Part shown: in pieces, positions 45,560-64,000 of the stretch
Layout of the letters: each line of letters opens with the position of its first letter
How positions within the stretch are numbered: the stretch's first letter is position 1
NCBI RefSeq assembly: GCF_000374305.1
Contig: NZ_KB894094.1
Coordinates: 479,077 to 543,076, forward strand
Origin: Actinomadura flavalba DSM 45200
GTDB lineage: Bacteria > Actinomycetota > Actinomycetes > Streptosporangiales > Streptosporangiaceae
Direction: 5' to 3'
Length of the DNA: 64,000 nucleotides
Position numbers and translations under genes: made by a program
Notes under the pieces: generated by a model
What the model was told of the DNA's origin: nothing
The model's database searches: none
The model's input: the letters and a program-made list of their open reading frames with translations, nothing else

Positions 45560-45595
45560 CAGTAACGCCGTTATTGTCAGGAAACAACGTTACTG
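45560..45595. promoter_or_regulatory. candidate TetR operators
   Basis: TAACG-C-CGTTA is a perfect palindrome at 45563-45573. CAGTAACG (45560-45567) is also exactly complementary to CGTTACTG (45588-45595). The element begins ten bases before the tetR start codon, fitting autorepression, and lies in the 134-bp gap that also holds the GH3 promoter. Confidence 0.7.
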
Positions 45596-45684
45596 CACCT
45601 CGCGTCAACCCCCGCGCCGGACGGTTATCCACAGGCTGCGGGGTGACGTCGCGGGACGGTGGCCGCCGGGGTACGTTGCCGAGC

Positions 45685-48754: not shown

Positions 48755-48773
48755 CCTCGGGTTGGATGGGGGG

Positions 48774-49568
48774 ATGGGCTTCGTCAGTTTGACGACGGAT
48801 TTCGGGGCCGGTTATACCGGTGTCTGCCAGGGGGTGATCTTGCGGATCGCTTCTCGGGCGCGGGTGCTCGTGGTGTCGGACGAGGTGGCGCCGTATCAGG
48901 TCGTGGAAGGTGCCTGCCTTCTGGAGCAGGCGCTTCCGTATCTGCCGGAAGGGGTGCATGTCGCCGTCGTGGACCCCGGGGTGGGGACCTCGCGGCGGCC
49001 GATCGGGATCGCCACGGCGCGCGGTGATGTTCTCGTCGGGCCCGACAACGGGCTGCTGACGCTCGCCGCCGATGCTCTCGGGGGTGCCGTCCGCGCGCAC
49101 GAACTGGCCGAGCCCGCTTACCGCCTGGCCGCCGTCTCGTCGTCGTTCCACGGGCGCGACATCTTCGCTCCGGCCGCCGCGCACCTCGTGAACGGCGCCG
49201 AGCTGGCCGACTTCGGTCCCGCGATCACGCCGCTACCGCTGGACGTCGCGCCGGTGCGTCGAGCGGACGGCGCCCTCGTCGCGTCCGTGCTGTACCTCGA
49301 TCGCTACGGCAGTGCCGTCCTCACCGCGACGCCGGACGACCTTCCCGTCCCCTTCGGCACTCCGGTCACCGTGTCGTGGGGCGGCGGCACGCTCGACCTC
49401 GTCTACGCCGAGACCTACGGTGCCGTTCCGGTGGGTGTGCCGGTGCTCTGGCCGGACTCGTCCGGGCGGCTCGGGCTCGCCGTCAACCAGGGGTCGGCGG
49501 CGGAGCGGTACGGGCTGGTGGCGGGGGTCGAGCTGCGGATCGTGCACGATACTGGCGACCGTGCCTGA
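48774..49568 (+). CDS. SAM hydroxide adenosyltransferase (DUF62) family protein
   Basis: Member of the family that also holds fluorinase and chlorinase and which splits S-adenosylmethionine to adenosine and methionine with hydroxide. The 264 residues include SLTTDFGAGYTGVCQGVI, VHVAVVDPGVGTSRRPI, VGPDNGLL, SSTFHGRD-like SSSFHGRDIFAPAAAHL and the C-terminal NQGSAAERYG. The Asp-His-Arg set of the hydroxide enzymes appears present; the ~23-residue fluorinase loop is not evident. ATG at 48774; it overlaps the NUDIX gene. Confidence 0.88.
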   Translation: MGFVSLTTDFGAGYTGVCQGVILRIASRARVLVVSDEVAPYQVVEGACLLEQALPYLPEGVHVAVVDPGVGTSRRPIGIATARGDVLVGPDNGLLTLAADALGGAVRAHELAEPAYRLAAVSSSFHGRDIFAPAAAHLVNGAELADFGPAITPLPLDVAPVRRADGALVASVLYLDRYGSAVLTATPDDLPVPFGTPVTVSWGGGTLDLVYAETYGAVPVGVPVLWPDSSGRLGLAVNQGSAAERYGLVAGVELRIVHDTGDRA

Positions 49569-49969: not shown

Positions 49970-51202
49970 TCACTCGCGGGCGGAGAGGGGGGCGGTGGGG
50001 TCGGCCCAGCGGGTGTTGGGGACGGTGGGGTACCAGCCTTCGCGGCCGGGGTCGCGGTCGTAGGGGTAGTCGCCCAGTTCGCGGTAGAGGTCGGCGTACC
50101 GGGCGACCTTGGCGGGGTCGAGGCGGACGCCGAGGCCCGGGCCGGACGGCACGCGGATGCGGCCGTCGCGGTAGGGCAGGGGGCCGCCCTCGATGACGTC
50201 GTCGGTGAGATGGTGGTAGTGGGCGTCGGCGGCGTAGGTGAGGTTGGGCAGCACCGCGCCCAGGTGGAGCATGGTGGCGAGCTGGATCCCCAGTTCGCCT
50301 GACGAGTGGACCGAGACGTCCACCTGGAACGTCTCGCAGACCCCGGCAGCCTTGATACAGGAGCGGATGCCGCCCCAGAACGTCGTGTCCAGGAGCACGA
50401 CGTCCACGCCCCGCCGCAGGACGTTCGCCGCCAACTGCTCGAAGTTGACCACGACCGTGTTGGTGGCCACGGGGACCGCCACGCGTTCGCGGATCTGGCG
50501 CAGGCCCTCCAGCCCCCAGGTGGGGTCCTCGAAGTAGTCGTTGTCCAGATCCTCGATGGCCTTCCCGAAACGGACGGCCTCGGCCATGCTCAGCACCGAG
50601 TTGGGGTCGTAGCGCAGGCGGTCGCCCGGGAAGGCGTCCGCCAGGGCGCGGTAGCAGTCCAGCTCGTGGGACGGCGGGAACACGCCGCCCTTGAGCTTGT
50701 GGACGGTGAAGCCGTGCCGGTCCCGGAGCACGCGGGCGTGCTCCACGAGCTGGTCCGGGGTGCGGATCTCGCCGTGCGCGCCGGACGCGTACCGGAAGAA
50801 CAGGTACGACGCGAACGGCACCTCGTCGCGGACGCGTCCGCCCAGCAGGTCGTGCGCGGGGACACCCAGGTGCTGGCCGACGAGGTCGATACAGGCGAAC
50901 TCGATGGCCGCCAGGAGCTGCGTGCGGTTGTTGTACAGCGACGCGGTCGGGTTGGCGATCTTGAAGCGGAGGTTCTCCAGCTCGAACGGGTCGTGGCCGC
51001 GCAGGTAGGGCAGCAGTCCCCGGACGGCCTGCTCGGCGCTCTCACCGCCGCCGCCCAGCTCACCGAGACCGACCAGGCCGGTGTCGGTCTCGACTTCCAC
51101 GAGGGTGCGGACGAAGCGGCCCCAGTGCGCGCCGTTGCTGTGCAGCAGCGGCGCTTCCAGGGGGACGGCGACGGTGGTGGCGCGGATGTCGGTGATCCTC
51201 AC
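49970..51202 (-). CDS. enolase-superfamily dehydratase, glucarate dehydratase type
   Basis: Removes water from a sugar acid to give a 2-keto-3-deoxy (or 5-keto-4-deoxy) acid. The 410 residues retain the glucarate-dehydratase active site: Lys169-x-Lys171 in FTVHKLKGG, metal ligands Asp199 (RYDPN), Glu225 (YFEDP) and Asn248 (VATN), and His299 in [12 protein letters not shown] resembles the family's FWTMQGS segment. The usual HSNNH reads HSSGE, so the substrate may differ from glucarate. GTG start overlaps the glycosidase stop by four bases, making it the last gene of the importer operon. Confidence 0.88.
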
Positions 51203-54200
51203 GCGGCACCGTCCAGGGCGACGGCGACCACGGCGATGCCGCAGCCGGGCAGGCGCACGGTCACCGCGCCGTCGCGGACCGGCAGCTCGTCCGGATCATG
51301 CTCCAGGCCCGCACTGGCCCACGCGCGGCGGGCGCCGGGGACGGTCAGCGTCGTCTCCACCGGCCCGGACGCCAGCGACCGCAGCCGGACCAGCAGGTCG
51401 TGGCCGTGCCGTGAGCGGCCGACGGACGTGACGAGCACGTCCGGGTCGTCCGCCGTCACCAGGACGCCGTCCGCCTCGGCCGTGCCCGGCCCGGTCGCGA
51501 GCGTCGCGACGAACGCGTCGGTGAGCCCGGCCGCCGTCACCGCGCCGAGCCGCCGCCCGGACCCCGCGTCCTGCGGGGCCGCCGACGCCACCGCGTACCG
51601 GAACGTCGTCTCGCCCTGCTGCTGGGACGGGAAGTTGGTGTCCCAGATGTTGTTCAGCGCCCACGAGTACAGCGTTCCGGGCTCCTCGCCGAGCGTCGGC
51701 GGGAACGGCGCGTACGGCATGTGGATCGACCCGAACTGGACGAGCGGCGCCTCCAGCGTCGCCCACGCGACGGTCAGCGCGGGGTCCTCGAACGCGACCC
51801 AGTGCCGGATCGGCCGCATGTGCTCGGCCGACCCCGGCACGCTGGGCACGGCCGTGCCGCCGACGCCGCCGGTCAGCTCCCAGGCGGCGGGGGCGTCCGG
51901 CACCGCGAACGGGAACGCGAAGAACACCGCCTCCTTGGCGGGCGTGGGCTGCTTGGCGATCCGGTGCGTGAGGTCGAGGCGCGGGACGCCCGCGTACAGC
52001 TCGATCGTCGTGCGGATCCAGTCGACGCCCTTGGCGTGCTGCTCGACGACGAGCCGTTCCCCGACCGGCGTCCGCTCGGCCGTCACGACGGTGGCGGCGC
52101 CGCCGATGGCGCGGTCGCCGAGCAGGGCCGTGTCGTGCACGAGGACGTGCCCGGACAGGTGGTTGAAGTGCGGCGCGGTGGCGTACCGGTCGTAGACGTA
52201 CTGCCCGAAACCGCCCGCCGCGTCGGCCGCGACCAGCTCGCGCCCGGCGCGCTTGTCGAACACCGACGCGATGTGCCCGCGCCGCGTGTCGTACTCGACG
52301 CGGTAGAACTCGTTCTCGACGACGGTGCCGTCCAGCTCGGCCGGGACCGGCGCGGGCGCGTCGGCGCGCACGACGTCCACCCGGACGTGCCCGTGGCCGG
52401 GGACGTCGGCCAGCACGGCCGACAGGTGCCGTCCGATCGGCCGCGTCGGCCACTCGGCGGGGTCGACCTCGACCTCGTGGTGCGCGATGTCCTCGCCGGT
52501 CCGCGCGTCGACGAGCCTGACCGGGACGTCCACCGCGACGACGTCGCGCGGCAGGAACGCCCGCACGACGTCGGTCCGCGCGGCGGTCCCGGGGTTGACG
52601 ACGACGAACGACGCCGGCGCGCCCTCCCCCGCCGCGAACGTGGCCCCGAACCGGTACGCGGCGGTGTTGACCAGCTCGTGCGCGGCGTCGTGCGCGCGGT
52701 AGGCGAAGGCGGACTTGTGGCCCCACTGGAGCCCGCCCGAGTCGCCCGCCTCCTCGGCGTCCTCCCACGGGTTCGCGGCGCCCCAGGTGTGCTCGTCGAA
52801 CATCGCGGCGTCGTCGTAGGCGGCGTCGATCGCGTCGGCGGCGCCGGTGGTCTCGCCGCTGCGCGCGTCGGCGAACGCGTGCAGCGTCTCGGCGGTGCGC
52901 AGCAGGCTCTGCGCCCGCCGGACGTAGCCGAGCGGGCGCGCGCCCGAGCCGAGCCCGTCGGCCCACCAGTCGGTCCAGTCGCCCTCGTGGGTGTCGAGCC
53001 GGTCGCCGTGCTCGCGCTCGACGTGCTCGAAGAAGTCGGAGTTCGTCGCGGTGCGGACGCGCGGGTACGCCCACGTCTCGTTCCAGCGGCGCGCGATCGA
53101 CGCGGGCAGCAGCGACGGCCCGGCGTTGTCGGCGTGCGCGCCCTGCACCCGCAGGTGGACGGCGTCCAGCGCGTCGGGCGCCTTGGCCGCGCCGACCTGG
53201 CCGGGCGCGGCGTACCAGCCGAACGTGCCGGGGCCGTAGGGGTAGGGGCTGTCGGAGAGGGCGCGCAGGTAGCGGGGCAGCAGGTCCTCGGTGAGGTCGT
53301 AGCCGTCCACGAGCCCGACCGTGTTGCCCTCCATGTACGCCATGCCGTGCGGGGTGTCGGTGAACCAGACGAGCAGTTCCCGGCCGGACGGCGCCCGCCA
53401 CCGGAACGGCCGGGCGAGCCGGTCGCCGCCCGTCACGTACGGCACCGAGCGGCCCGCCCAATTGTGCGCGGCCGACAGGTACCGGACCCCGGCGGCGCTG
53501 AGCGCGTCCACGACGCCGACGACGGCGCCCGGGATGTCGGTGTGCATCGCGGAGCGGACGTCGATGCCGTGCCGCTCCCGCAGCCCGGCGACGTGCCGGA
53601 GCTGCCGGTACAGCTCCTCGTCCGAGCACGCCTCGGTGTGGAGCTGCATCGGGAACGCGGTGACCTCGATCTGCCCGGCGCGGGCGGACGCGGCGAACTC
53701 CGCGACGGCGTCGGCCGGGCGGGTCGCCAGCCAGCGCAGCGCGGGCAGCGACGACTCCACCGACCAGCGGAACCGGGCGTCGTCGGGCCAGTCGGCGGTC
53801 TCGCGGCTGAGCCGGACGGCGGCGTCGAGGTAGTCGAGGTGGTGGCGCAGGACGGTGGCCTGCGGGTCGGTGTAGCCGATGTCGAGGTGCGAGTGGTGAA
53901 CGACGAACACCGTCCACTTGCGCTGCGGGGTGACGTCGACGGGCGCCGCGCCGACGAGCCCGGCGTCGTCGTGGACCTCCAGCGTGAGCCGCCGCGTCGC
54001 GTCCACCTCGGGGACGAGGAGCGTCGCGGTGCCCGAGCCGTCCGGGTTCGCGGCGTCCACCGGCGGTCCGCCGGGTTCGCGCAGGGTCAGCCGCAGGCCC
54101 GCCGCGGGGCCGCCGGTCACCGTGATCCGCACGGCCTGGCGCAGCGTCCCGGCGTCGTCGCGGCGGAACAGCGGCAGCACGGCGGCGCGGACGGCGAGCC

Positions 54201-54315
54201 CGCGCACGGCGAGGACCTCGGCGGAGGTGTCCTCCCGCAACGCGGCGCGGATGCGGTCGTAGTCGGGGGAACCGAGGCTTTCCTGGAGCAGGCGACTGGT
54301 CATCGTCGCGGTCAC
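51199..54315 (-). CDS. divergent GH38-type glycosidase
   Basis: A 1038-residue cytoplasmic protein without signal peptide. The first ~130 residues form a beta-rich extra domain. The catalytic domain starts at [11 protein letters not shown] (140-150), where His-x-His-x-Asp replaces the classical HTHWD metal motif. Asp260 in AMHTDIPGA is the candidate nucleophile, and HNWAGRS and [12 protein letters not shown] supply further active-site residues. C-terminal beta domains fill 560-1038. It resembles GH38 alpha-mannosidases and the related DUF5054-like proteins. Start is GTG 54315 or ATG 54303. It sits in an importer operon, so acts on imported oligosaccharide. Confidence 0.85.
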
Positions 54316-54334
54316 ACCTTCCGGAGGGAGGGGG

Positions 54335-55168
54335 TCAGATCTGGGTCAGCGAGAGGCCGCGCGTGAACAGCCGCTGGGTGAGCAGGAACAGCGCGACCGT
54401 GGGGAGCGACACGACGAGCCCGGCGGCGAGCGCGATCGGGACGGGCGTGCCGGCGTAGACGTCGGTGGTGAGCGCCGCCAGTTCGGTCATCGCGGGCCGG
54501 ACGGTCTCGGACTGGGTCAGCGTGAGGCCGAACAGCAGGTCGTTCCAGACGAACGTGAACTCAAGGATGAACACGGCGGCGAGCGCGGTCCACGACAGCG
54601 GCAGGTGGATGCGCCAGAAGATCCGGAACGTGGACGCGCCGTCCATCCGCGCCGCCTCGAAGATCGAGATCGCGATGCCGCCGAAGTAGTTGCGCAGGAC
54701 GAGCGCCGCGAGCGGCACGTTGATCGCCGCGTAGACGAGGACCATGCCGAGCCGCCCGTCGTACAGCGACATGCGGCTGTAGCCGAGGAACAGCGGCACC
54801 AGCAGCATCTGCAACGGGAACACGGTGCCGCCGAAGATCAGCATGAACCAGGCGAACCCGTACCTGATGCGCAGCACGACGATCGCGTAGGCGGCGAGCG
54901 CCCCGACGAGCACCGCGAGCAGCGGGGAGACGAGGCTGTACAGCAGCGAGTTGGCGAGCCCGGCGGCCAGGTCGGTCCGCTCGAACACCTCGCGGACGTT
55001 GGCGAACAGGCCCAGCTCACCGGAGGGTTTCAGCGCCTCGCCGGGCCGGTAGTCCTCGGCCGGGCGGAAGGCGTTGACGAGGATCAGGTACGTCGGCACC
55101 AGCCACAGCAGGCCGAGCACGGCCAGCACGGCGCGCCGCAGCGTCGCCGACAGGTTCCGGGCGCGCAT
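54335..55168 (-). CDS. carbohydrate ABC transporter permease (MalG type)
   Basis: Inner-membrane subunit of 277 residues with six helices, starting LRRAVLAVLGLLWLVPTYLILVNAF. The EAA loop that docks on the ATPase is EAARMDGASTFRIFWRIHLPL at about 175-195. Its start shares one base with the stop of the partner permease (TGATG). No ATPase gene is in the operon; a shared MsiK-type ATPase elsewhere is the usual solution in actinobacteria. Confidence 0.93.
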   Translation of the reverse strand: MRARNLSATLRRAVLAVLGLLWLVPTYLILVNAFRPAEDYRPGEALKPSGELGLFANVREVFERTDLAAGLANSLLYSLVSPLLAVLVGALAAYAIVVLRIRYGFAWFMLIFGGTVFPLQMLLVPLFLGYSRMSLYDGRLGMVLVYAAINVPLAALVLRNYFGGIAISIFEAARMDGASTFRIFWRIHLPLSWTALAAVFILEFTFVWNDLLFGLTLTQSETVRPAMTELAALTTDVYAGTPVPIALAAGLVVSLPTVALFLLTQRLFTRGLSLTQI

Positions 55169-56088
55169 CAGTGCGTCTCCTTCCTCGCCTGGTGGCGCAG
55201 ATAGGCGTAGGAGGCGAGCCCGGTGATCGTCGTCAGCAGGACCGCGACGGCCGAGCCGTAGCCGTACTGGTCGGCGTTGAACACGTCGCGGTACATGGTG
55301 ACGGCGAGCGTCTCGGAGTTGCGGCCCGGTCCGCCCTGGGTCATGACCCAGACGATGTCGAACGTCTTGAGGCTGGCGACGAGCGCGAGCCCGACGACGA
55401 CGGTGGTCAGGGGCCGCATCAGCGGCCAGGTGACGTGCCGGAACAGCGACCAGCCGGACGCGCCGTCGAGCCGGGCGGCCTCGATCGGCGCGCGCGGGAT
55501 CGACTGGAGGCCGACGGCGAACAGCAGCATGTTGACGCCGAGCTGCTGCCACGTCCACACGGCGATCATCGCGAACGTGTTGCCGGGGGCGTCGGCGAGG
55601 AACGAGGCGTCGCCCCCGGGCATGCCGAGGAACGTGAGGATCTGGTTGGCGACGCCGTCGGGTTGCAGGATGAAGCCCCAGACGAGGCCGAGCCCGGCGC
55701 CCGACAGCGCGTACGGGAGCAGGAACGGGAGCCGGAGCCAGGCGCCGCCGCGCAGGTCGTGCGAGAGGACGGCGACCAGGAGGCCGAGCCCGACGGGGAG
55801 CAGCGTCGTCCCGGCGACCCACAGCAGCGTGTTGCGCAGGGACGTGAGCAGCGCCGGGTCGTCGAGCAGCTTGGCGTAGTTGTCCAAGCCGGTGAAGACG
55901 GGCGAGCCGAGGCCGTCGTAGCGGGTCATGCTCAGGTAGACCGTCCACAGGAACGGCAGGTAGAGCAGGACGGCGACGACGATGACGGCGGGCGACAGGT
56001 AGCCGAACCGCAGCCGCCCGAAGAGCCGGAAGCCCGCGGGGGCGCCGCGCGCGGGACGCGCGCGGGCCCGCTTGCCGAGTGCGGTCAC
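55168..56088 (-). CDS. carbohydrate ABC transporter permease (MalF/UgpA type)
   Basis: A 306-residue permease, first of the pair, with six helices and a charged N-terminus. The EAA loop reads PIEAARLDGASGWSLFRHVTWPL. GTG start at 56088 lies seven bases past the binding-protein stop. Typical CUT1 family, which import oligosaccharides rather than monosaccharides. Confidence 0.93.
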   Translation of the reverse strand: MTALGKRARARPARGAPAGFRLFGRLRFGYLSPAVIVVAVLLYLPFLWTVYLSMTRYDGLGSPVFTGLDNYAKLLDDPALLTSLRNTLLWVAGTTLLPVGLGLLVAVLSHDLRGGAWLRLPFLLPYALSGAGLGLVWGFILQPDGVANQILTFLGMPGGDASFLADAPGNTFAMIAVWTWQQLGVNMLLFAVGLQSIPRAPIEAARLDGASGWSLFRHVTWPLMRPLTTVVVGLALVASLKTFDIVWVMTQGGPGRNSETLAVTMYRDVFNADQYGYGSAVAVLLTTITGLASYAYLRHQARKETH

Positions 56089-56095
56089 GGGGGGA

Positions 56096-57370
56096 TCAGC
56101 CTCCCGCGCCCTGGGTCTTCCAGTACTCCTCGTTCGCCTTCTGGATGTCGGCGAGGACCTTCTGGTAGGTGTCCGGCTTGGCGAGGAATCCGCTGAGGCC
56201 GTCGAGGGCGGCGGTGAGCACCGGTGCGGGGACCAGCTCGAAGAACCGCAGTGCCAGCCGGTTCTTGGAGTCCGCCGCCTGCTTGGTGATCGCGCTGAGT
56301 TCGGGGTCGGCGGCCTTGACCTTGGGGTTGCCCGACACGTCGCCGCGCGAGTTGGACCACTTCTCCTGCGCCTCGGGGCTGATCCACCACTTGAGGTAGC
56401 GTTCGCTGGCCTTGGGGTCGGGTGCCTTGGTGAGCGAGCACAGCGGCCCGCTCTCGAAGATCAGCGACGTCTTGGGCAGCGCCGGTTCGACGTTGGGGAC
56501 GAAGAAGAACCCGTAGTCGTCGCCCTGCTTGAGGCCGCGCTGGGTCATGCTCGTGTTGAACCACGTGCCCGACATGACCATCGCGGCCTTGCCGGACTTG
56601 AAGTGGTCGGCGGGGTCGGCCTTGTCGCCGGGGTTGGCGAACCAGCCCGCGTCGATCATGGACTTCCAGCGCTCCATGACCTTGACGACGCGCGGGTCGG
56701 TGAAGGACGCCTTGCCGGTGCCGAGCTGCTCGTACAGGTCGGGGTCGGTGCCCGCGACCATCTGCCCGAACCAGACGAAGGAGAACAGCGACGAGGGCGT
56801 GGTGTGGTGGAACGGGACCTGCCCGGCGCCCTTCAGTGTCTCGGCGATCTTCGTCAGCTCGTCCCAGGTGGTGGGCGGCTTGAGGTTGTGCTGGGCGAAG
56901 ACCTTCTTGTTGTAGAACATGCCCCAGTAGGCGGTGTTCAGCGGGACGCAGTACTGCTTGCCGTCCACCGTGTAGTACTTGGCGAGGTCGGCGGTGAGGT
57001 CGCCCGAGCCGATGGCCTGCTTCCACAGCGCGGTCGTCTCGGCCACCTGCTTCTGGCCGACGATCTCGTTGAGGCGGCCGCCGGTCGTCCAGGTGAACAG
57101 GTCCGGCTTGACCTTGGTGCGAAGGGACGCCTTGATGAAGGCGGTGTAGGTGGGTTCGTCGGTGTAGCCGACGGGCTTCATGCCGAGCCCGATGCTCTGC
57201 TTGGACAGGGCCCCCATCTGGTCGAAGTACTCCGACCAGGCTCCCTTGTCGTTGTAGAGCTTCAGTTCGGACTTGCCGCCGGCGGAGTCGCCGCCGGAGG
57301 AGCAGCCGGTCAGCGCGACCAGGACGGCGCCGGTGGACAGGGCGGTCACCCGCAGACGCGTCGACAGCAT
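56096..57370 (-). CDS. extracellular sugar-binding lipoprotein (CUT1 family)
   Basis: A 424-residue solute-binding protein. The leader MLSTRLRVTALSTGAVLVALTGC ends in a lipobox with Cys23, so it is lipid-anchored outside the membrane. Cluster 1 features follow, including NTAYWGMFYNKKVFAQHNLKPPTTWDELTK and KAAMVMSGTWFN. AAGGAGG lies five bases before the ATG at 57370. It heads the importer-glycosidase-dehydratase operon, whose promoter holds two LacI-type palindromes. Confidence 0.94.
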   Translation of the reverse strand: MLSTRLRVTALSTGAVLVALTGCSSGGDSAGGKSELKLYNDKGAWSEYFDQMGALSKQSIGLGMKPVGYTDEPTYTAFIKASLRTKVKPDLFTWTTGGRLNEIVGQKQVAETTALWKQAIGSGDLTADLAKYYTVDGKQYCVPLNTAYWGMFYNKKVFAQHNLKPPTTWDELTKIAETLKGAGQVPFHHTTPSSLFSFVWFGQMVAGTDPDLYEQLGTGKASFTDPRVVKVMERWKSMIDAGWFANPGDKADPADHFKSGKAAMVMSGTWFNTSMTQRGLKQGDDYGFFFVPNVEPALPKTSLIFESGPLCSLTKAPDPKASERYLKWWISPEAQEKWSNSRGDVSGNPKVKAADPELSAITKQAADSKNRLALRFFELVPAPVLTAALDGLSGFLAKPDTYQKVLADIQKANEEYWKTQGAGG

Positions 57371-57418
57371 GGGGGCCTCCTTGCAGGGGTGGTGGTGCAG
57401 GGGGGTGGGCGGTGCCAG

Positions 57419-57460
57419 GGAACGTTCCATGCCGCGTTCCACGTCGTTGTGGAACGTTCC
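57419..57460. promoter_or_regulatory. two LacI-type operators GGAACGTTCC upstream of the binding-protein gene
   Basis: The perfect 10-bp palindrome GGAACGTTCC occurs at 57419-57428 and 57451-57460, 32 bp apart (three turns). A further inverted repeat, CGTTCCAC-n6-GTGGAACG (57435-57456), overlaps the second. The first site begins 49 bp before the start codon. Such central-CG palindromes are typical of LacI-family repressors of sugar genes, but the adjacent regulator gene is GntR type, so the binder is probably encoded elsewhere. Confidence 0.75.
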
Positions 57461-57508
57461 GCGCGGAGAATGGGATCGGAGGGACGGGACGGTCGGCGCC
57501 CGGCGGTG

Positions 57509-58192
57509 TCAGCCGAGGCGGGCTTCGATGACGTGCTTGACGTCGGTCAGGTGGGCGCGCATCAGGCCCTCGGCGGCCGAGGCGTCGCCCGCCTCGATCG
57601 CGGTGAAGATGGCCTGGTGCTCGGCGTGGTCGCGGACGCGGTCGTCGAAGAGGCGGAGTATCTCCCGCTGCTCGGCGGCGTGCAGCGACAGCAGCGAGGC
57701 GACGACCTCGTCCAGGACGCCGTTCCCGGCGGCCTGGGCCACCGCGCGGTGGAAGGTCATGTTCGTCTCGTGGAGTTCGGCGTCGGCGCCGTCCAGGTGG
57801 CGGCCGGCGCGCTCCAGGATGGTGCGCAGGGCGGCGGTGTCGGCGCGGCGCGCGGCCATCGCGGCGAGCGGGGGCTCGATGACGAGCCGCGCGTCGAGGA
57901 GCTGGAGGAGCTGGTCTCCGGCCAGCTCGCGGACGTTGGGGTTGGGGATGACGACGCGTTCCAGGTCCGAGCCGACATAGATGCCCGAGCCGTGCCGCAT
58001 CTGCACGGCGCCGGTGGCCTCCAGCCGGCGCAGCGCCTCGCGCAGCGTCGGGGTCGTCACCGAGAACCGCTGGGACAGTTCACGCGCGGTGGGGAGCCGG
58101 TCCCCCGCGTGCAGTCCCTCCGACCTGATCAGCTCCAGGACGCGCTCGGTGAGCGTGTCGGAGAGGGTCGGCCGGGCGAGTTCCTGGGACAT
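57509..58192 (-). CDS. GntR-family regulator, FadR subfamily (FCD domain)
   Basis: A 227-residue regulator with an N-terminal winged helix (RVLELIRSEGLHAGDRLPTARELSQRFSVTTPTLREALRRLEATGAVQMRHGSGIYV) and a helical FCD ligand domain. The FCD domain has the metal/ligand histidine region HETNMTFHRAVAQAAGN and HAEHQAIFTAIEAGD. FCD regulators often sense sugar acids such as gluconate, glucarate or galactonate, which fits the adjoining dehydratase and aldolase. Its own promoter carries one candidate operator, repeated at the aldolase promoter. Confidence 0.93.
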   Translation of the reverse strand: MSQELARPTLSDTLTERVLELIRSEGLHAGDRLPTARELSQRFSVTTPTLREALRRLEATGAVQMRHGSGIYVGSDLERVVIPNPNVRELAGDQLLQLLDARLVIEPPLAAMAARRADTAALRTILERAGRHLDGADAELHETNMTFHRAVAQAAGNGVLDEVVASLLSLHAAEQREILRLFDDRVRDHAEHQAIFTAIEAGDASAAEGLMRAHLTDVKHVIEARLG

Positions 58193-58218
58193 GTGGTGTA
58201 CCTCACTGAGAAGAAGTC

Positions 58219-58235
58219 AAGTCATCTAATCACTT
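58219..58235. promoter_or_regulatory. GntR-type operator upstream of gntR
   Basis: AAGTCATCTAATCACTT is an imperfect inverted repeat (AAGTnAT-n3-ATnACTT) lying 27 bp before the gntR start and overlapping the 3' end of the esterase gene. It shares GTCATC and ACTT with the palindrome at 63419-63435. Confidence 0.6.
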
Positions 58236-59144
58236 ATCCGGAGAGCTGTCCAGCGCCCGCCGCAGCGCCCGGTACTGCGCCTCCAATGCCTCGCGTCCGA
58301 CCGCCGCGCCGGGCACCGTGTCGAAGCCGTGGTAGGCGCCCGGGACGTGCAGCAGCCCGGTCGGCACCCCCGCGCGGACCAGCCGCACCGCGTGGTCCAG
58401 CGCCTCGTCGCGCAGCGGGTCGATCTCGGCGACGAGCACGAACGCGGGCGGCAGCCCGCGCAGGTCGGCTGCGCGGGCGGGCGCGGCGTACACCGGCGCC
58501 TCGGCGTCGCCGCCCAGGTAGTGCCGCCACATGTGGTCCACGTCGCCGCGGTTGAACAGCGGCGGCGCGGTGTAGGCGCGCATCGACGCGGTGGCGCGGC
58601 GGTCGTCCAGCACCGGGTACAGCAGGAGCTGGAACGCCAGCGGCGGGCCGTGCTCGTCGCGGGCGCGCAGCGCGAGCCCGGCGGCCAGGCACCCGCCCGC
58701 GCTGCCGCCGCCCACCGCGAGCCGGGACGGGTCGCCGCCGAGCCCGGCGGCGTGCGCGGCCGTCCAGCACAGCGCGGTGTAGGCGTCCTCGAACCCGGCC
58801 GGGAAGGGGTGCTCGGGCGCCAGCCGGTAGTCCACCGACACGACCAGCACGCCCGCCTCGGCGGCGAGCCCGACGCAGCGGGCGTGCTCGGTGTCCAGGC
58901 CGCCGGTGCAGAACCCGCCGCCGTGCAGGTAGACCAGGACGGGCACCGGCCCCGGCGCGTGCCGGGGCCGGTAGATCCGCACGGGCACCCCGTCCGCCCG
59001 GCGGTCCGCGACCTCGACCCGGGGGTCGGCGGCGGGACCGCCGAGCGTGCGGGCCAGCTCCTCCATCGCGACGCGCGCGGCGCGCGGATCGGCCAGGCCG
59101 ACGTACGGCAGCGCGGGCAGCGCGGCGGCGAGCTGGGCGTCCAT
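58230..59144 (-). CDS. alpha/beta hydrolase, HSL-type esterase
   Basis: A 304-residue cytosolic esterase of the hormone-sensitive lipase family. The oxyanion-hole motif HGGG occurs in LVYLHGGGFCTGG, the nucleophile in GGSAGG (the usual GDSAGG has Gly for Asp here), the acid in AEIDPLRDEALD and the His in GAYHGFD. GAGGAG lies seven bases before the ATG. Within a glycan locus it may remove acetyl or other acyl groups from imported sugars (inference). Confidence 0.88.
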   Translation of the reverse strand: MDAQLAAALPALPYVGLADPRAARVAMEELARTLGGPAADPRVEVADRRADGVPVRIYRPRHAPGPVPVLVYLHGGGFCTGGLDTEHARCVGLAAEAGVLVVSVDYRLAPEHPFPAGFEDAYTALCWTAAHAAGLGGDPSRLAVGGGSAGGCLAAGLALRARDEHGPPLAFQLLLYPVLDDRRATASMRAYTAPPLFNRGDVDHMWRHYLGGDAEAPVYAAPARAADLRGLPPAFVLVAEIDPLRDEALDHAVRLVRAGVPTGLLHVPGAYHGFDTVPGAAVGREALEAQYRALRRALDSSPDK

Positions 59145-59163
59145 GCGGATCTCCTCTACCGGG

Positions 59164-60342
59164 TCAGCCCGAGACCGGGACGTCCACGAAACGCGGCCGG
59201 TAGATCGACACGTTCCGGTACACGTCGTTGTTCGGGCCCGCCTGCATGTCCAGCGTGTTGACGTTGTACGACACGACGAGCTTGCCGGACGTGTTCATCG
59301 ACGCGTGGGCGTGGGCGTTGTAGGTGTAGACGTCCGGGTCGCCGTAGCTGCCCCAGGGGCCGCCGTCCGGCGTGGAGTAGACGGTCTGCTCGGCCGTGAA
59401 GGGACCGTGCGCCGCGCACGACAGGTGCGCGTCGATCTGGGCGCTGAACGCCTCCTTGGTGTCCTGGTTGATCATGATGTAGTGCGAGCCGCGCTTGCTG
59501 ACGCTCAGCTCGTTGGACACGCCGCTCATCAGCCGCACCGAGGCCGTCTCGCTGGTCGACCAGCCCGACGCCGTCCGGTACTCCCACGTGCCGCGCAGGT
59601 CGGTGCCGGTGACGCGGGCGACGCGCAGGTACTTGTCCGCGCCGCGGTCCTCGGTGCCGTAGACGTAGGTGTAGCCGCCGTCCTTGAGCAGCGCCGACCC
59701 CCACATCGTGCCGGTGGCCGACGGCAGCGCCGTCACGCTGACGGGCTGGTTGAGGTTGCCGGTGGAGAACCGGGCCAGGACGTTGCGGTCGAACGCGATG
59801 TCCCACGGGCCGGAGCCGGTCTTGACGTACTCGCGGTAGGGCTGCTGCACCTCGTTGCCGTGCGTGATCATGTCGCCCGCCCAGTAGACGCGGCCCGGCC
59901 CGCTCGGCGGCAGCAGCGCCGTCGGCGCCGATGCGGTGCCGCCGCGCGCCGTCGTCAGCGTCCCCGAGGTGGACTGCACGACGAACGTGTTGTTCAGGAA
60001 CGGGGTCGTGCCGCCGTCGGAGATGACGACGGGCCGGGAGCCGTTGGCGTTGATCGTGCCGAGGAAGGTGTCGGAGAAGCCGAACACGATGCGGCCGTCG
60101 GCGAGCTTGACCGAGTAGGTGCTGTCGGCGCCCGTCCAGTCGTCGAGGCGGGCGTTGCTGTTGCCGTAGGTGGTGAACCTGGTGTTGAGCGTGGTGTTCG
60201 GCGCGGCGGTGCCGAACACCGGGGCGGCCTTGCCCGCGCAGGTCGGGCCCGCCGCCGCGCTCGCCTGGCCGGGGACGGCGAGTGCGGCGGCGGCGAGCAA
60301 CGCCGAGGTGAGGAGTGTCCGGACGCGAACGGTGCCGTGCAT
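59164..60342 (-). CDS. secreted propeller-fold protein (DUF4185/DUF5005-like), copy 1
   Basis: A 392-residue exported protein with a Sec signal peptide cleaved near ASA-AAG. The mature part resembles five-bladed propeller glycosidases: FSDTFLG, GGTTPFLNNTFVV, YWAGDMITHGNEVQQPYREY, and the C-terminal YTYNAHAH, VVSYNVN and NVSIYRPRFVDV. Two cysteines (CAGK near the mature N-terminus, LSCAAHGPF later) are shared with copy 2. The ATG at 60342 has GGAGGG seven bases upstream. Function is unproven; arabinan-, sialic- or galactan-type exo-hydrolase activity is possible. Confidence 0.85.
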   Translation of the reverse strand: MHGTVRVRTLLTSALLAAAALAVPGQASAAAGPTCAGKAAPVFGTAAPNTTLNTRFTTYGNSNARLDDWTGADSTYSVKLADGRIVFGFSDTFLGTINANGSRPVVISDGGTTPFLNNTFVVQSTSGTLTTARGGTASAPTALLPPSGPGRVYWAGDMITHGNEVQQPYREYVKTGSGPWDIAFDRNVLARFSTGNLNQPVSVTALPSATGTMWGSALLKDGGYTYVYGTEDRGADKYLRVARVTGTDLRGTWEYRTASGWSTSETASVRLMSGVSNELSVSKRGSHYIMINQDTKEAFSAQIDAHLSCAAHGPFTAEQTVYSTPDGGPWGSYGDPDVYTYNAHAHASMNTSGKLVVSYNVNTLDMQAGPNNDVYRNVSIYRPRFVDVPVSG

Positions 60343-60376
60343 CGTTCCCTCCAAGGGGGAATCGGGTCGGGGCGGG

Positions 60377-61174
60377 TCAGTCTTCGGGGAGGACGGCCGG
60401 GTTGCGGGCGAGCAGCCCGCCGTCCACGCGGTGGTCGGTGCCGGTGACGAACGAGGCGCGCGGCCCGGCGAGGAACGCGACCATCTCGGCCACCTCGGCG
60501 GCCCGCGCGACGCGGCCGAGCGGGTGCGCCCGGCCCCAGGCGGCGATCTGGTCCTCGCGCGGGGTGTCGCCGCGGAACAGGTCGGCGGCCCAGCGCAGCA
60601 TCGGCGTCTCGACCGAGCCGGGGCAGACGGTGTTGGCGCGGATGCCCTCGCGGGCGTGGTCGATGGCGACCGCGCGGACGAGCCCGTTGATCGCGGCCTT
60701 GCTGGCGGTATAGGCGGCGACGCCGCGCTGCGACACGAACGCCTGCACCGACGACACCGCGACGATCGCGCCGCCGCCGCGCTCGCGCAGGGCGGGGATC
60801 GCGGCGCGGCAGGCCAGGAAGACGCCGGTGAGGTTGACGCCGAGGACCTCGTCCCACAGCTCCTGCGACGTCTCCTCCACGGTGCCGTAGCGCTGGACGC
60901 CCGCCGAGGTGACGAGCACGTCCAGGCCGCCGTGCCGCATGACGGCCGTCGCGACGAGCCCTCGCATCGCCTCGGCGTCGGTGACGTCGGCGACGACGCC
61001 GGTGACGTCGTGGCCCCGGTCGCGCTCGTCCTGTTCGGCGGCGCGGACCGAGTCCTCGTCGGCGCCGCACAGCACGACGGCGGCGCCGTCGGCGGCGAGC
61101 CGTTCCACGACGGCGCGGCCGATGCCCAGCGACCCCCCGGTCACCACGGCGACGCGTCCGGTGTACTCCCCCAT
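60377..61174 (-). CDS. short-chain dehydrogenase/reductase
   Basis: A 265-residue NAD(P)-dependent oxidoreductase of the classical SDR type. The nucleotide motif is TGGSLGIG (12-19), with Ser142, Tyr155 and Lys159 forming the catalytic set in VSSVQAFVSQRGVAAYTASK. The C-terminus carries DHRVDGGLLARNP. Located between two propeller genes and coupled by a one-base overlap to the mutarotase-like gene. It probably oxidises an imported sugar or its acid for the dehydratase (inference). Confidence 0.93.
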   Translation of the reverse strand: MGEYTGRVAVVTGGSLGIGRAVVERLAADGAAVVLCGADEDSVRAAEQDERDRGHDVTGVVADVTDAEAMRGLVATAVMRHGGLDVLVTSAGVQRYGTVEETSQELWDEVLGVNLTGVFLACRAAIPALRERGGGAIVAVSSVQAFVSQRGVAAYTASKAAINGLVRAVAIDHAREGIRANTVCPGSVETPMLRWAADLFRGDTPREDQIAAWGRAHPLGRVARAAEVAEMVAFLAGPRASFVTGTDHRVDGGLLARNPAVLPED

Positions 61175-62205
61175 CACGGTTCCTCTCTGATCTCGGCGCT
61201 CAGCCACAGCGCGACCCGCTCGCGCGGGGCGAGGGTGCGCGCGGTCCCGGCGGCGGCGGCGCGGGCGAGGCCGTCGGTCGGACGGCCCGCGAACGGTTCG
61301 AGGCCGACCACGTACGCGCGGCCCCACCAGGGATGATCCCGGGAGGCGCCCAGCTCCTGCCACATCCACAGCCACGGCAGCACCGACGCGTCCCAGCGGA
61401 CGCCGAGCCCGGCGCCGCGCGCGGGGTCGTCGATCGCGTACCGGCCGCCGGTTCCGGCGAGGTACAGCATCTCGCTCGGCTCCCCCGGCTCCGGGACGAC
61501 GCTGAGATCGACGGTCCCGCCGTCCGGCGCGGGGACATGCGGCCACGTCCCGCCCGCGCCGACCCGGCGGCCCCCGGGACCGACCGGCGTCGCGTGCGGG
61601 ACGACCTCGGTGCCCGGGTCGAGGGTGATCCGGTGGCCCGGCTTCAGGAACGGCGCGCCGAACACGATGTGGTGGCCCCACATGACGTCCAGCGGCACGT
61701 CCGCCTCGTTGGACAGTTCCTCCTCGACGCGCAGGGCGGGTTCCCCGGCGGCGAGCAGGAACGTCTTCTCCACCCGCAGCGGCATCCGCCGCGCGCGGAC
61801 GGTGAGGCGGACCGCGACCTCGGCCGGGTCGTCGCGGACGATCTCGGCGTCCCACGGCAGCCCGGCGACCTCGCCGTGCTGCGCCAGCGCCGCGCCCCGG
61901 TACCGGCCCGGCGCGCCGCCGTTGGGCAGCACCTCCTGCCAGCCGCCCTCGTAGTGATCGTGGAAGGCGCCGACGTCGTCGGCGGCGGCCCCGGCGACGT
62001 CGGCGGGCGCGCGGACGCCGTCCGGGTTGAGCCAGACGTAGTCCAGGTCGCGGCGCTTGTCGAGCAGTTCCACCAGGTCGCCGCCCTTGCCGGTGAGGAC
62101 GGTGACGCGCAGCCGCTCGTTCTCCAGCACGACGGCGGGCATCCCCCACCACGTCGTCTCGTGCAGGCGCGCGCCCCAGTTGCGCGCGGCGCGGTGCCGG
62201 CGCAT
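61174..62205 (-). CDS. galactose-mutarotase-like protein (aldose 1-epimerase fold)
   Basis: A 343-residue beta-supersandwich protein without signal peptide, resembling aldose 1-epimerase/DUF4432 proteins. Visible features are NERLRVTVLTGKGGDLVELLDKRRDLDYVWLNP at the N-terminus, GGWQEVLPNGG, MWGHHIVFGAPFL with a His pair where the mutarotase catalytic His lies, and WQELGASRDHPWWGRAYVVGLEPFAG near the end. It likely interconverts sugar anomers, or binds the sugar. Starts three bases after the second propeller gene. Confidence 0.85.
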   Translation of the reverse strand: MRRHRAARNWGARLHETTWWGMPAVVLENERLRVTVLTGKGGDLVELLDKRRDLDYVWLNPDGVRAPADVAGAAADDVGAFHDHYEGGWQEVLPNGGAPGRYRGAALAQHGEVAGLPWDAEIVRDDPAEVAVRLTVRARRMPLRVEKTFLLAAGEPALRVEEELSNEADVPLDVMWGHHIVFGAPFLKPGHRITLDPGTEVVPHATPVGPGGRRVGAGGTWPHVPAPDGGTVDLSVVPEPGEPSEMLYLAGTGGRYAIDDPARGAGLGVRWDASVLPWLWMWQELGASRDHPWWGRAYVVGLEPFAGRPTDGLARAAAAGTARTLAPRERVALWLSAEIREEP

Positions 62206-62208
62206 CGG

Positions 62209-63369
62209 TCAGCCGGTCCGGACGGTGATGAAGCGCGGCCGGTAGATGCTGACGTCGCGGTAGTGATCGGTGTTCACCAGGCTGTTGACGTTGTAGGAGA
62301 CGACCAGCGAGCCCCGGCGGCTCAGCTCGGGATGCGCGTGGGCGTTGTAGGTGAAGACGTTCGGGTTGCCGTAGGTGCCGGACGCGCCGGTCTCGGGCGT
62401 GCGGTACACGGGCGTCTTGGCGGTGAACGGGCCGCGCGGCGCGCACGCGTAGTACGCGACGATCCTGTCGCTGAACGCCTCGGTGGTGTCCTGCGTGAGC
62501 AGCAGGTAGCCGGTGCCGTGGCGGGTCACGCTGTACTCGTTGGCGACGCCCGGCATGATCGGCGCCGCGTCGCGCTCCGACCTCGACCAGCGGCCGTTCG
62601 CGGCGGCGTACTCCCAGCGTCCGCGCAGGTCGCCGCCCTTCACGCGGGCCAGGTGCATCGACTTGACCGCGCCCCCGTCCTCGACGCCGTAGACGTAGAT
62701 GTACGGACCGGAACGCTCCAGCCAGGACGCCCACGCGACGCCCTCGCCGGACGGCAGCGGGGTGACGCTCACCGGCTTGCCGAGCCGGTCCGGGCGGAAG
62801 CGGGCCAGCACGTTGCGCGACCAGCGCCAGTCCCAGATGCCGGGGCCGAACCGCTCGTACTCCTGGTAGGTGGCCTGCACGTGGCCGTCGGACGTGATCG
62901 CGTCCCCGGCCCAGTACCAGTGCTCGTCATCGCGCGGCGGCATCGCCGCCCGCGGTTTCTCCGGCGTGCCGCCGGTGACCGTGGTGAGCCGGTCGCCGGA
63001 CTTGACGACGAACGTGTTGTTGAGGAACGGCGTCGTGCCGCCCTCTTCGATGACCTTGGAGCGTCCGCCGTCGGCGTCGACCTTGCCGAGGAAGGTGTCG
63101 GAGAAGACGAACGCGACCTTTCCGCCGGGCAGCGCGGTGGAGTAGGTGCCGTCGGCGCCGGTCCAGTCGTTCGTGCGGCGGTTGTCGTTGCCGTAGCGGG
63201 TGAACAGGCGGTCCAGCTCGGCGTTCGGGGCGGCGCCGCGCACGGCGGGGAGCTGCTTCCCGGCGCAGACCGGCGGCGCGGGCGGCGGGTCGGCGAGGGC
63301 GACGGGGGCGGCGAGGGTCAGGGTGAGGGGGGCGGCCAGCAGGGCGCTCAGCAGGCGTCGTCTCGGCAC
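62209..63369 (-). CDS. secreted propeller-fold protein (DUF4185/DUF5005-like), copy 2
   Basis: A 386-residue paralogue of the protein at 59164-60342, with the same order of motifs: CAGKQLP, FTRYGNDN, NDWTGADGTYS, FSDTFLG, GGTTPFLNNTFVV, YWAGDAITSDGHVQATYQEY, FTYNAHAH, VVSYNVN and DVSIYRPRF. A Sec signal peptide ends near ALA. GTG start with GGAGG five bases upstream. It leads a minus-strand operon (propeller, mutarotase, SDR, propeller, esterase) and its promoter contains a GntR-type palindrome shared with the aldolase gene. Confidence 0.85.
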   Translation of the reverse strand: MPRRRLLSALLAAPLTLTLAAPVALADPPPAPPVCAGKQLPAVRGAAPNAELDRLFTRYGNDNRRTNDWTGADGTYSTALPGGKVAFVFSDTFLGKVDADGGRSKVIEEGGTTPFLNNTFVVKSGDRLTTVTGGTPEKPRAAMPPRDDEHWYWAGDAITSDGHVQATYQEYERFGPGIWDWRWSRNVLARFRPDRLGKPVSVTPLPSGEGVAWASWLERSGPYIYVYGVEDGGAVKSMHLARVKGGDLRGRWEYAAANGRWSRSERDAAPIMPGVANEYSVTRHGTGYLLLTQDTTEAFSDRIVAYYACAPRGPFTAKTPVYRTPETGASGTYGNPNVFTYNAHAHPELSRRGSLVVSYNVNSLVNTDHYRDVSIYRPRFITVRTG

Positions 63370-63418
63370 CGGGTCCTCCAGGGAGGCGATCGGGGTGGAT
63401 GATCGTCGCCCTGAAGTC

Positions 63419-63435
63419 TGGTCATCAGATGACTT
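63419..63435. promoter_or_regulatory. GntR-type operator in the propeller/aldolase divergent promoter
   Basis: GTCATC-A-GATGAC (63421-63433) is a perfect palindrome in the 92-bp gap between the second propeller gene and the aldolase gene. The 17 bases around it match the gntR upstream site at 13 positions. It is 27 bp before the aldolase start, so one protein bound here could control both directions. Confidence 0.7.
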
Positions 63436-63461
63436 ATTGTCTAGATGTATGGTGCGGAAGC

Positions 63462-64000
63462 ATGAATGTTCTCGCTGAGATCGGACGCGCCGGGGTGCTT
63501 CCCGTCATCCGGCGCGCGTCGGCGGACGAAGCGGTCACGCTGTGTACGACGTTGCTCGACCTCGGGGCGCCCGTCCTGGAACTGACCGCGACCACGCCCG
63601 GCTGGCCCGACGTGCTGGCGTCCGTCCGGGCGCTCGCCCCGGCCGTGCCGCTCGGCGTCGGGACCGTCACCGACGCGCGGACGGCGCGGGACGCCGTCGC
63701 GGCGGGCGCCGACTTCCTCGTCAGCCCCTACCCGGCCGACGCCGTCCGCGCCGTCGCGGACCGGGCGATCGTGCCGTTCGTCGAGGGCGGGTTCACGCCC
63801 GGGGAACTGGCCGGGATCGTGCGGCGCGGGGGCGTCGCCAAGCTGTTCCCGGCGGCGTCCGGCGGGCCGGGGCACCTGCGGGCCGTCCTGGACGTGCTGC
63901 CCGGGGCGCGGATCATCCCGACCGGCGGCATCGCGGTCGCGGACGTCCCGGCGTGGCTCGCGGCGGGCGCGTTCGCGGTCGGGGTCGGGTCCGCGCTCGC
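63462..64000 (+). CDS. KDPG/KHG aldolase family protein (partial)
   Basis: Class I aldolase that splits 2-keto-3-deoxy sugar acids to pyruvate and an aldehyde. The 179 residues visible show VLPVIRRASADEAV, VLELTATTPGW, LGVGTVTDARTA, FLVSPYPADAV, PFVEGGFTPGEL, the Schiff-base Lys in VAKLFPAASGGPG and IIPTGGI. The Arg of the canonical EVTLRT motif is Thr here, as in some KHG-type members. The gene runs off the right edge, about 25-30 codons short. GCGGAAG precedes the ATG. Confidence 0.92.
   Translation, partial: MNVLAEIGRAGVLPVIRRASADEAVTLCTTLLDLGAPVLELTATTPGWPDVLASVRALAPAVPLGVGTVTDARTARDAVAAGADFLVSPYPADAVRAVADRAIVPFVEGGFTPGELAGIVRRGGVAKLFPAASGGPGHLRAVLDVLPGARIIPTGGIAVADVPAWLAAGAFAVGVGSAL

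Follow-up and report, generated by a model that had tools for sequence, protein, structure and literature searches.

Which carbohydrate is a bacterium equipped to use when a glucarate-dehydratase-like enolase, a protein of glycoside hydrolase family 38 (GH38), a sugar importer, two propeller proteins and an aldolase are encoded side by side? The question is raised by a locus of Actinomadura flavalba DSM 45200 within a 64,000-base stretch of DNA (the window; bases 479077–543076 of a 778,726-base contig, in a genome of 6.17 Mb). Eleven minus-strand genes at 49970–63369 form one block with a divergent aldolase gene of the KDPG/KHG type (2-keto-3-deoxy-6-phosphogluconate/2-keto-4-hydroxyglutarate). 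From 63369 downwards the minus-strand order is propeller 2, DUF4432 protein, short-chain dehydrogenase/reductase (SDR), propeller 1, esterase, GntR-FCD regulator, solute-binding protein, two permeases, GH38 protein and enolase.

An initial annotation, made from the sequence alone, had named these genes, noted overlaps between them and described a CUT1 importer lacking an ATPase of its own. All of the named genes were confirmed (Table 1), the overlaps are real (for example, enolase/GH38 at 51199–51202), and no ATPase gene was found within the block; at other sites the genome has three MalK-type (OB_MalK) genes. Most frames of the block were chosen by a screen on GC3 (G+C at third codon positions); permG, the SDR and the 2-keto-3-deoxygluconate (KDG) kinase were missed by this screen and rest on homology. 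Below, L numbers denote loci and G numbers genomes, and a homologous locus is called a cassette if it carries the SDR plus DUF4432 or GH38, as do 51 of the 74 loci found when named genomes were scanned with the propeller alignment.

We consider it probable that the locus is under GntR control and serves the use of a mannose-containing glycan, feeding an oxidative mannose route through mannonate and an Entner–Doudoroff branch. Four lines of evidence, namely the SDR, the enolase, the glycosidases and the kinase, aldolase and SMP-30 genes, point by sequence to D-mannose. From the gene set, its conservation, a shared palindrome and the sequence relationships we infer the enzyme activities in the following scheme, as well as binding by the regulator. 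The secreted propellers, probably retaining glycosidases, would cut the glycan outside the cell, and the importer, with a borrowed ATPase, would take up the pieces as an alpha-mannoside. The GH38 protein, judged by family and context, would then release D-mannose, and the DUF4432 protein, which we assume to resemble a mutarotase, would interconvert the anomers. Oxidation by the SDR would give mannonolactone, opening spontaneously or with the help of an SMP-30 lactonase in those cases that have one; the enolase would dehydrate D-mannonate to KDG, from which KDG kinase and KDPG aldolase would yield pyruvate and glyceraldehyde 3-phosphate. More tentatively, and with somewhat less than even confidence, we propose that the propellers constitute a new glycoside hydrolase family near GH183 that cuts a mannose polysaccharide, and that the enolase is a GlucD-derived D-mannonate dehydratase, independent of UxuA and ManD, in a bacterial oxidative mannose pathway.

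The proposed dehydratase and dehydrogenase

The best PDB relatives of the enolase are 4it1, 3vc5 and 3vdg. In a tree of 136 sequences (105 distinct after identical ones were dropped) it falls within a clade of 75 distinct sequences with support of 0.991, whose members are at least 63% identical to it; sequences outside the clade reach at most 47.3%. The GlucD-type catalytic positions (KxK, D-x-N, E, N, D and H), each presumably with its GlucD-type role, are kept in all 75 clade members and in all 30 outside sequences. At positions 21, 274, 301 and 330 nearly every clade sequence departs from the outgroup, as would fit a different substrate. The stereochemistry of D-mannonate at C2/C3 matches that of D-glucarate at C5/C4, and a GlucD-type site would therefore suit D-mannonate. 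The clade, which appears to be new, occurs in many genomes of Nonomuraea and in several of Actinomadura.

One clade member (L205) is encoded in a run of hexuronate genes. Its gene follows those for a binding protein, an ATPase and two permeases and precedes those for a UxaE tagaturonate epimerase (461 bits) and then a UxaC glucuronate isomerase (504.6 bits, cut-off 387). Next come an SDR assigned to the D-mannonate oxidoreductase family (374.9 bits, cut-off 281), a PfkB kinase, for which the KDG kinase model is best but under its cut-off, and a DapA-type aldolase. UxuA gave no match in nine of the ten genomes searched, including the L205 genome and that of the window. Because the enolase is the sole recognised dehydratase in the run and UxuA was not found, it is likely, on these sequence grounds, to be the D-mannonate dehydratase there.

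For the SDR, the top three matches among 177,635 distinct PDB sequences were 3vtz (197 bits), 2dtd/2dte/2dtx (172 bits) and 2zk7 (167 bits). Entries 3vtz, 2dtd and 2zk7 are deposited as glucose 1-dehydrogenase or related, and we take all of these structures to be Thermoplasma aldohexose dehydrogenases. According to the part of the source available, Thermoplasma AldT oxidises mannose to mannonolactone (PMC6901390).

Several findings weigh against these two assignments. The enolase is below the NCBIfam cut-off for each dehydratase model listed, among them the equivalogs for glucarate dehydratase (TIGR03247, 164.1 bits against 828.7) and ManD (NF043051, 83.9 bits against 550). L205 branches outside most of the clade, at a node supported at only 0.579; no other dehydratase was recognised in its stretch, which lies on a contig truncated on either side, and the search of that genome did not cover ManD-type enolases. 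Among the PDB matches of the SDR, the second and third are closely followed by a fourth, 4ni5 (162.5 bits), and the SDR stays under the cut-offs of its two best NCBIfam models, PRK06138 (238.9 bits, cut-off 312) and the 'aldose dehydrogenase' PRK06398 (232.2 bits, cut-off 341). Other enolase relatives lie beside an MFS porter and a galactonate-dehydratase-like gene in two-SDR clusters (L201, L202) or beside TctABC and HpaI-type aldolase genes (L203, L206); such varied contexts (L201–L203, L206 and L207) suggest that substrates may differ or drift. The two-SDR clusters also brought L-fucose or L-rhamnose oxidation among the readings considered. At L204, SMP-30, SDR and enolase genes form a trio.

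The same chemistry might thus serve another free aldose, such as glucose, galactose or a deoxy or O-methyl sugar, the acid of which is dehydrated by the enolase. The breadth of the SDR and enolase families and the varied contexts of the enolase relatives would allow this, and a PhyH-type dioxygenase gene beside several Actinomadura-type cassettes (in A. flavalba at 64935–65777; L009:8012–8854) could possibly act on a modified sugar. Set against it are the hexuronate gene run of L205, the closest solved relatives of the SDR, and the GH38 and GH92 neighbours described below, and we regard another aldose as unlikely.

The probably secreted propellers and candidate glycosidases

Both propellers carry a leader peptide, as read by eye, and are 55% identical to each other. 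Both belong to DUF5005 and score higher on it than on DUF4185, the cut-off of which is passed by propeller 2 only (Table 1). An AlphaFold2 model of propeller 2, built from 41 chosen sequences, had a predicted local distance difference test (pLDDT) score of 91.9. When this model was searched against solved structures, the nearest fold was 4hbs, a DUF5005 protein (Z 34.0), followed by the GH183 endo-D-arabinanase EndoMA1 (8ic1; Z 28.6 and 28.5); the other 47 of the 50 matches listed reached at most Z 20.3. EndoMA1 requires D33, D51 and E243, as stated in the portion of the paper available (PMC10509167). E243 aligns with E278 of propeller 2, which is kept in 38 of the 41 sequences. D73 and D91 are invariant in all 41 and have the 18-residue spacing of EndoMA1 D33/D51, a pairing that comes from the spacing and not from a residue map. 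On this fold and these acids, the propellers would probably be glycosidases of the retaining type, possibly acting on another substrate.

Since EndoMA1 cuts D-arabinan, this likeness also counts against mannose, and D-arabinose or D-arabinan was our first idea for the locus. It was set aside because GH172 was not found in the window genome and the data on the enolase and the SDR indicated another sugar. As an alternative it would make the propellers endo-D-arabinanases acting on mycobacterial-type arabinogalactan or lipoarabinomannan, with the SDR, enolase and aldolase burning D-arabinose. The idea gains from the D-arabinan locus of Microbacterium, which, in the available part of its description, encodes GH183, GH172 and GH116 enzymes (PMC10509167) and shares the layout of secreted five-bladed propellers, an ABC (ATP-binding cassette) importer with an SBP_bac_8 protein and intracellular exo-enzymes. 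The two loci differ in that ours has GH38, with no GH172 found in the window genome, and a proposed oxidative sugar pathway where the available account gives Microbacterium a putative isomerase and kinase. Of seven cassette genomes, five, that of the window among them, gave no GH172 (DUF2961), which is present in G003 and G435; GH116 was not searched for. For EndoMA1 Arg198, a residue that holds the sugar, the propeller alignment shows no counterpart, and the other GH183 structure listed, 8an0, gave only Z 19.2, level with unrelated propellers. With the GH38, GH92, SDR and enolase relationships pointing to mannose, we consider D-arabinan degradation improbable.

A mannose-containing glycan is favoured by the glycosidases that accompany the enolase and the propellers. 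The GH38 protein exceeds the Pfam cut-off in both its N and C domains, and no signal peptide was seen in it by eye. At L199 the enolase and SDR genes are followed by a mannose-isomerase-like gene (418.8 bits, under the cut-off of 600) and a GH92 gene (347.7 bits, over the cut-off of 249.55). Likewise, a GH92 gene adjoins a fused propeller at L147; that propeller, from Micromonospora inaquosa, is joined to subtilase and fibronectin type III domains (L147:2196–7616).

The GH38 protein is itself divergent, with a poor model (pLDDT 58.4) and no PDB relative by phmmer at E 0.01, and this tells against the assignment. So does the finding that, of the 32 loci in the enolase set L181–L212, 20 have next to the enolase a protein of about 700 residues that is no known mannosidase. 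This protein (L190:7447–9543; homologues in L181–L194, L196–L198 and L210–L212) occupies the place of GH38, including in family f19, which we infer to be the Jiangellaceae. It matched no family of Pfam or NCBIfam and nothing useful in the PDB; one homologue gave a weak MGH1-like glycoside hydrolase match (23.4 bits, under the cut-off of 27), and the protein is possibly an uncharacterised exo-glycosidase. The glycosidases of the locus appear to be new.

The lower branch, conservation and probable joint regulation

The initial annotation had proposed a non-phosphorylative route and had suggested reading on to the right of the window. The block does continue there, adding a KDG kinase gene and a PhyH gene, and the kinase alters the class of the pathway. 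Its gene starts 36 bases after the window end and shares 4 bases with the aldolase gene, from which we conclude that the branch is most likely semi-phosphorylative in the window genome; candidates for the dehydrogenase, dehydratase, KDG kinase and KDPG aldolase of such a route are all encoded at the locus, as judged from sequence. The non-phosphorylative route is therefore not supported as it was written. The SMP-30-like genes of some cassettes have homologues that are Pfam SGL.

The lower branch has its own weak points. The kinase matched NF052444 best of 18 families but at 288.4 bits, under the cut-off of 400 (307.2 bits for its G098 counterpart), and the aldolase, although over the Pfam Aldolase cut-off (95.9 bits against 27.8), missed that of NCBIfam TIGR01182 (119.9 bits against 156.05). 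This kinase type was found in three of ten genomes with the cassette enolase, and the window-type aldolase gene was detected beside the cassette only in the window genome and in G013. An Aldolase-family gene is present in all ten, so the lower branch may vary. A fully non-phosphorylative route, in which the aldolase cleaves KDG directly, would suit the seven genomes in which this kinase type was not found (other kinase families were not searched), but G098, G013 and the window genome carry the kinase gene at the cassette, and in the window genome it overlaps the aldolase gene; we think such a route very doubtful.

A semi-phosphorylative route from mannose has partial counterparts elsewhere. 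The enteric glucuronate pathway (UxaC, UxuB, UxuA, KdgK and Eda) likewise runs from D-mannonate through KDG and KDPG to pyruvate and triose phosphate; unlike it, the locus would be entered from mannose and not from a uronate, and its enolase is not UxuA. As far as the available part of the source describes it, the oxidative mannose route of Thermoplasma acidophilum uses AldT, ManD and KDG aldolase (PMC6901390). Mannonate and KDG would be intermediates in both, but at the locus the proposed dehydratase is a GlucD-type enolase scoring below the ManD cut-off, a KDG kinase is encoded along with a KDPG-type aldolase, and the genes accompany those of a glycan importer and belong to a bacterium. Among solved structures, the SDR is closest to what we presume to be the aldohexose dehydrogenases of Thermoplasma. 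A semi-phosphorylative mannose route has also been predicted for beta-mannan-using haloarchaea (Natronoglomus). In the accessible text (PMC10963439), the glycan would be cut extracellularly and oligosaccharides imported, mannose would be oxidised and mannonate dehydrated, and KDG kinase and KDPG aldolase would follow, all of which we propose here. That system acts on beta-mannan with GH5, GH26 and GH2 enzymes and ManD, whereas the locus has GH38, propellers and a GntR gene. The earlier statement that no described pathway matches was thus too strong. No description of this gene set was found in the open-licence literature, where absence weighs little. If our reading is true, an oxidative mannose route that the literature found, in its available parts, links to archaea extends to bacteria, and a testable substrate is offered for three uncharacterised groups: the DUF5005-like propellers, the GlucD-like enolase clade and DUF4432.

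That the genes belong together is supported by their conservation. In a family sample of 100 genomes, the window genome included, the enolase recurs at 77–84% identity in four others (G098, G064, G003 and G013), and the propeller at 53–69% in exactly these four, on the same contigs; the remaining enolases among the matches listed are at most 47% identical and the propellers of other genomes at most 43%. The expectation that the genes would co-occur in other actinobacteria was therefore borne out. Gene order is rearranged in the four genomes and much of the set is retained; no kinase, aldolase or PhyH gene was found near the cassette in G003 and G064. In a class sample of 394 genomes, 23 have an enolase of at least 735 bits, the next matches being at most 396 bits besides two G119 fragments and second copies at 710–722 bits.

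The 51 cassette loci come from Actinomadura, Nonomuraea, Streptosporangium, Thermoactinospora and a Streptosporangiaceae metagenome-assembled genome. They carry GH38 in 48 cases and DUF4432 in 48 (counts partly fixed by the definition of a cassette), the permeases in 37 and 46, the enolase in 43, the binding protein in 26, GntR in 16, the KDG kinase in 12, SMP-30 in 8, PhyH in 7 and the aldolase in 1; in many cases the locus stops short of the end of the cassette. The esterase, which had been thought to process the imported oligosaccharide, is present at the locus but in only 10 of the 51, and so is not core. Among the 23 propeller loci that fail the definition, L104 and L127 carry part of the set, and solitary propellers occur in Jiangella, Nocardia, Gordonia, Mycobacterium bohemicum and Verrucomicrobia, with neighbours that, read by eye, gave no substrate hint. 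In Streptomyces, a DNase NucA/NucB domain precedes the propeller in fusion proteins of this family (L134:4814–7504 and L138:8426–11146).

Shared operators had also been claimed, and a 17-base palindrome, AAGTSATYWRATSACTT, derived from upstream regions of five genomes, bears this out: the window holds two matches, at 58219 (no mismatch) and 63419 (two mismatches), where shuffles predict 0.03. The five genomes hold 14 distinct sites with at most two mismatches, ten of them inside cassettes, as are all seven with at most one mismatch; a control pattern gave two sites, one each in G064 and G013. This search is partly circular, as the pattern was made from the same genomes. One site in G013 precedes PhyH and not GntR directly. 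In the named genomes, of which three loci (L094, L097 and L146) appear to be from genomes used for the derivation, the palindrome is present in all 51 cassette loci, near the propeller start in 48 and near the GntR start in 15 of the 16 that bear GntR, and the reversed pattern had no match in 1.4 Mb of these loci. Families f19 and f47 have 21 cassette loci, in 16 of which the palindrome again lies ahead of the GntR gene; it is absent from 11 other enolase loci. Four Jiangella propellers without a nearby cassette have a site with one or two mismatches (L089 and L087) or three (L084 and L086); L087:5656 and L089:9974 are solitary propellers among housekeeping-type genes, with the palindrome just upstream.

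The same palindrome before both halves of the locus argues against their answering different signals, and the simplest reading is joint control by one regulon, which appears to be new and whose unlinked members the motif allows to be found. That the halves are two unrelated neighbouring units, as their convergent arrangement in Nonomuraea (hence not one transcript) might suggest, is highly improbable given the shared palindrome and joint conservation across genera and families. The view of the initial annotation that secreted propellers, importer, GH38 and an SDR–dehydratase–aldolase chain make one catabolic unit is supported.

Features of the locus and its neighbours

Table 1. Genes and putative operator sites of the locus, in window numbering (continued to the right of the window for the last two genes).
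Feature	Position	Strand	Evidence and remarks
Enolase-superfamily dehydratase, GlucD-type active site; proposed D-mannonate dehydratase	49970..51202	-	Pfam MR_MLE_C 188.5 bits
GH38-type protein, divergent; proposed alpha-mannosidase	51199..54315	-	Pfam GH38N 45.3 and GH38C 33.8 bits (cut-off 25)
CUT1-type permease	54335..55168	-	Pfam BPD_transp_1 53.4 bits; start chosen
CUT1-type permease	55168..56088	-	Pfam BPD_transp_1 54.5 bits
Solute-binding lipoprotein	56096..57370	-	Pfam SBP_bac_8 117.7 bits; start chosen; lipobox by eye
GntR-FCD regulator	57509..58192	-	Pfam GntR 66.4 and FCD 72.7 bits
Putative operator palindrome before GntR gene	58219..58235	.	0 mismatches to AAGTSATYWRATSACTT; kept in relatives
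Abhydrolase_3 esterase, accessory	58230..59144	-	Pfam 227.7 bits
Propeller 1, DUF5005-like, probably secreted	59164..60342	-	Pfam DUF5005 43.1 bits (cut-off 29.6); DUF4185 35.8 bits (cut-off 39.5)
SDR, proposed D-mannose 1-dehydrogenase	60377..61174	-	Closest PDB sequences 3vtz, 2dtd, 2zk7
DUF4432 mutarotase-like protein	61174..62205	-	Pfam 86.5 bits
Propeller 2, five-bladed, probably secreted	62209..63369	-	Pfam DUF5005 47.8 and DUF4185 42.3 bits, each above cut-off
Putative operator palindrome in propeller/aldolase divergent gap	63419..63435	.	2 mismatches
KDPG/KHG aldolase, gene end 64040 beyond window	63462..64000	+	Pfam Aldolase 95.9 bits; alternative upstream start 63399
KDG kinase, right of window	64037-64960	+	NF052444 288.4 bits; PfkB 157 bits
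PhyH gene, right of window, convergent to kinase gene	64935-65777	-	130.6 bits

To the left of the locus lie genes for an RPE65-family carotenoid oxygenase (43588–44925) and, on the strand opposite to the locus, a GH3 enzyme (45574–48000). A SAM hydroxide adenosyltransferase gene is found at 48762–49568.

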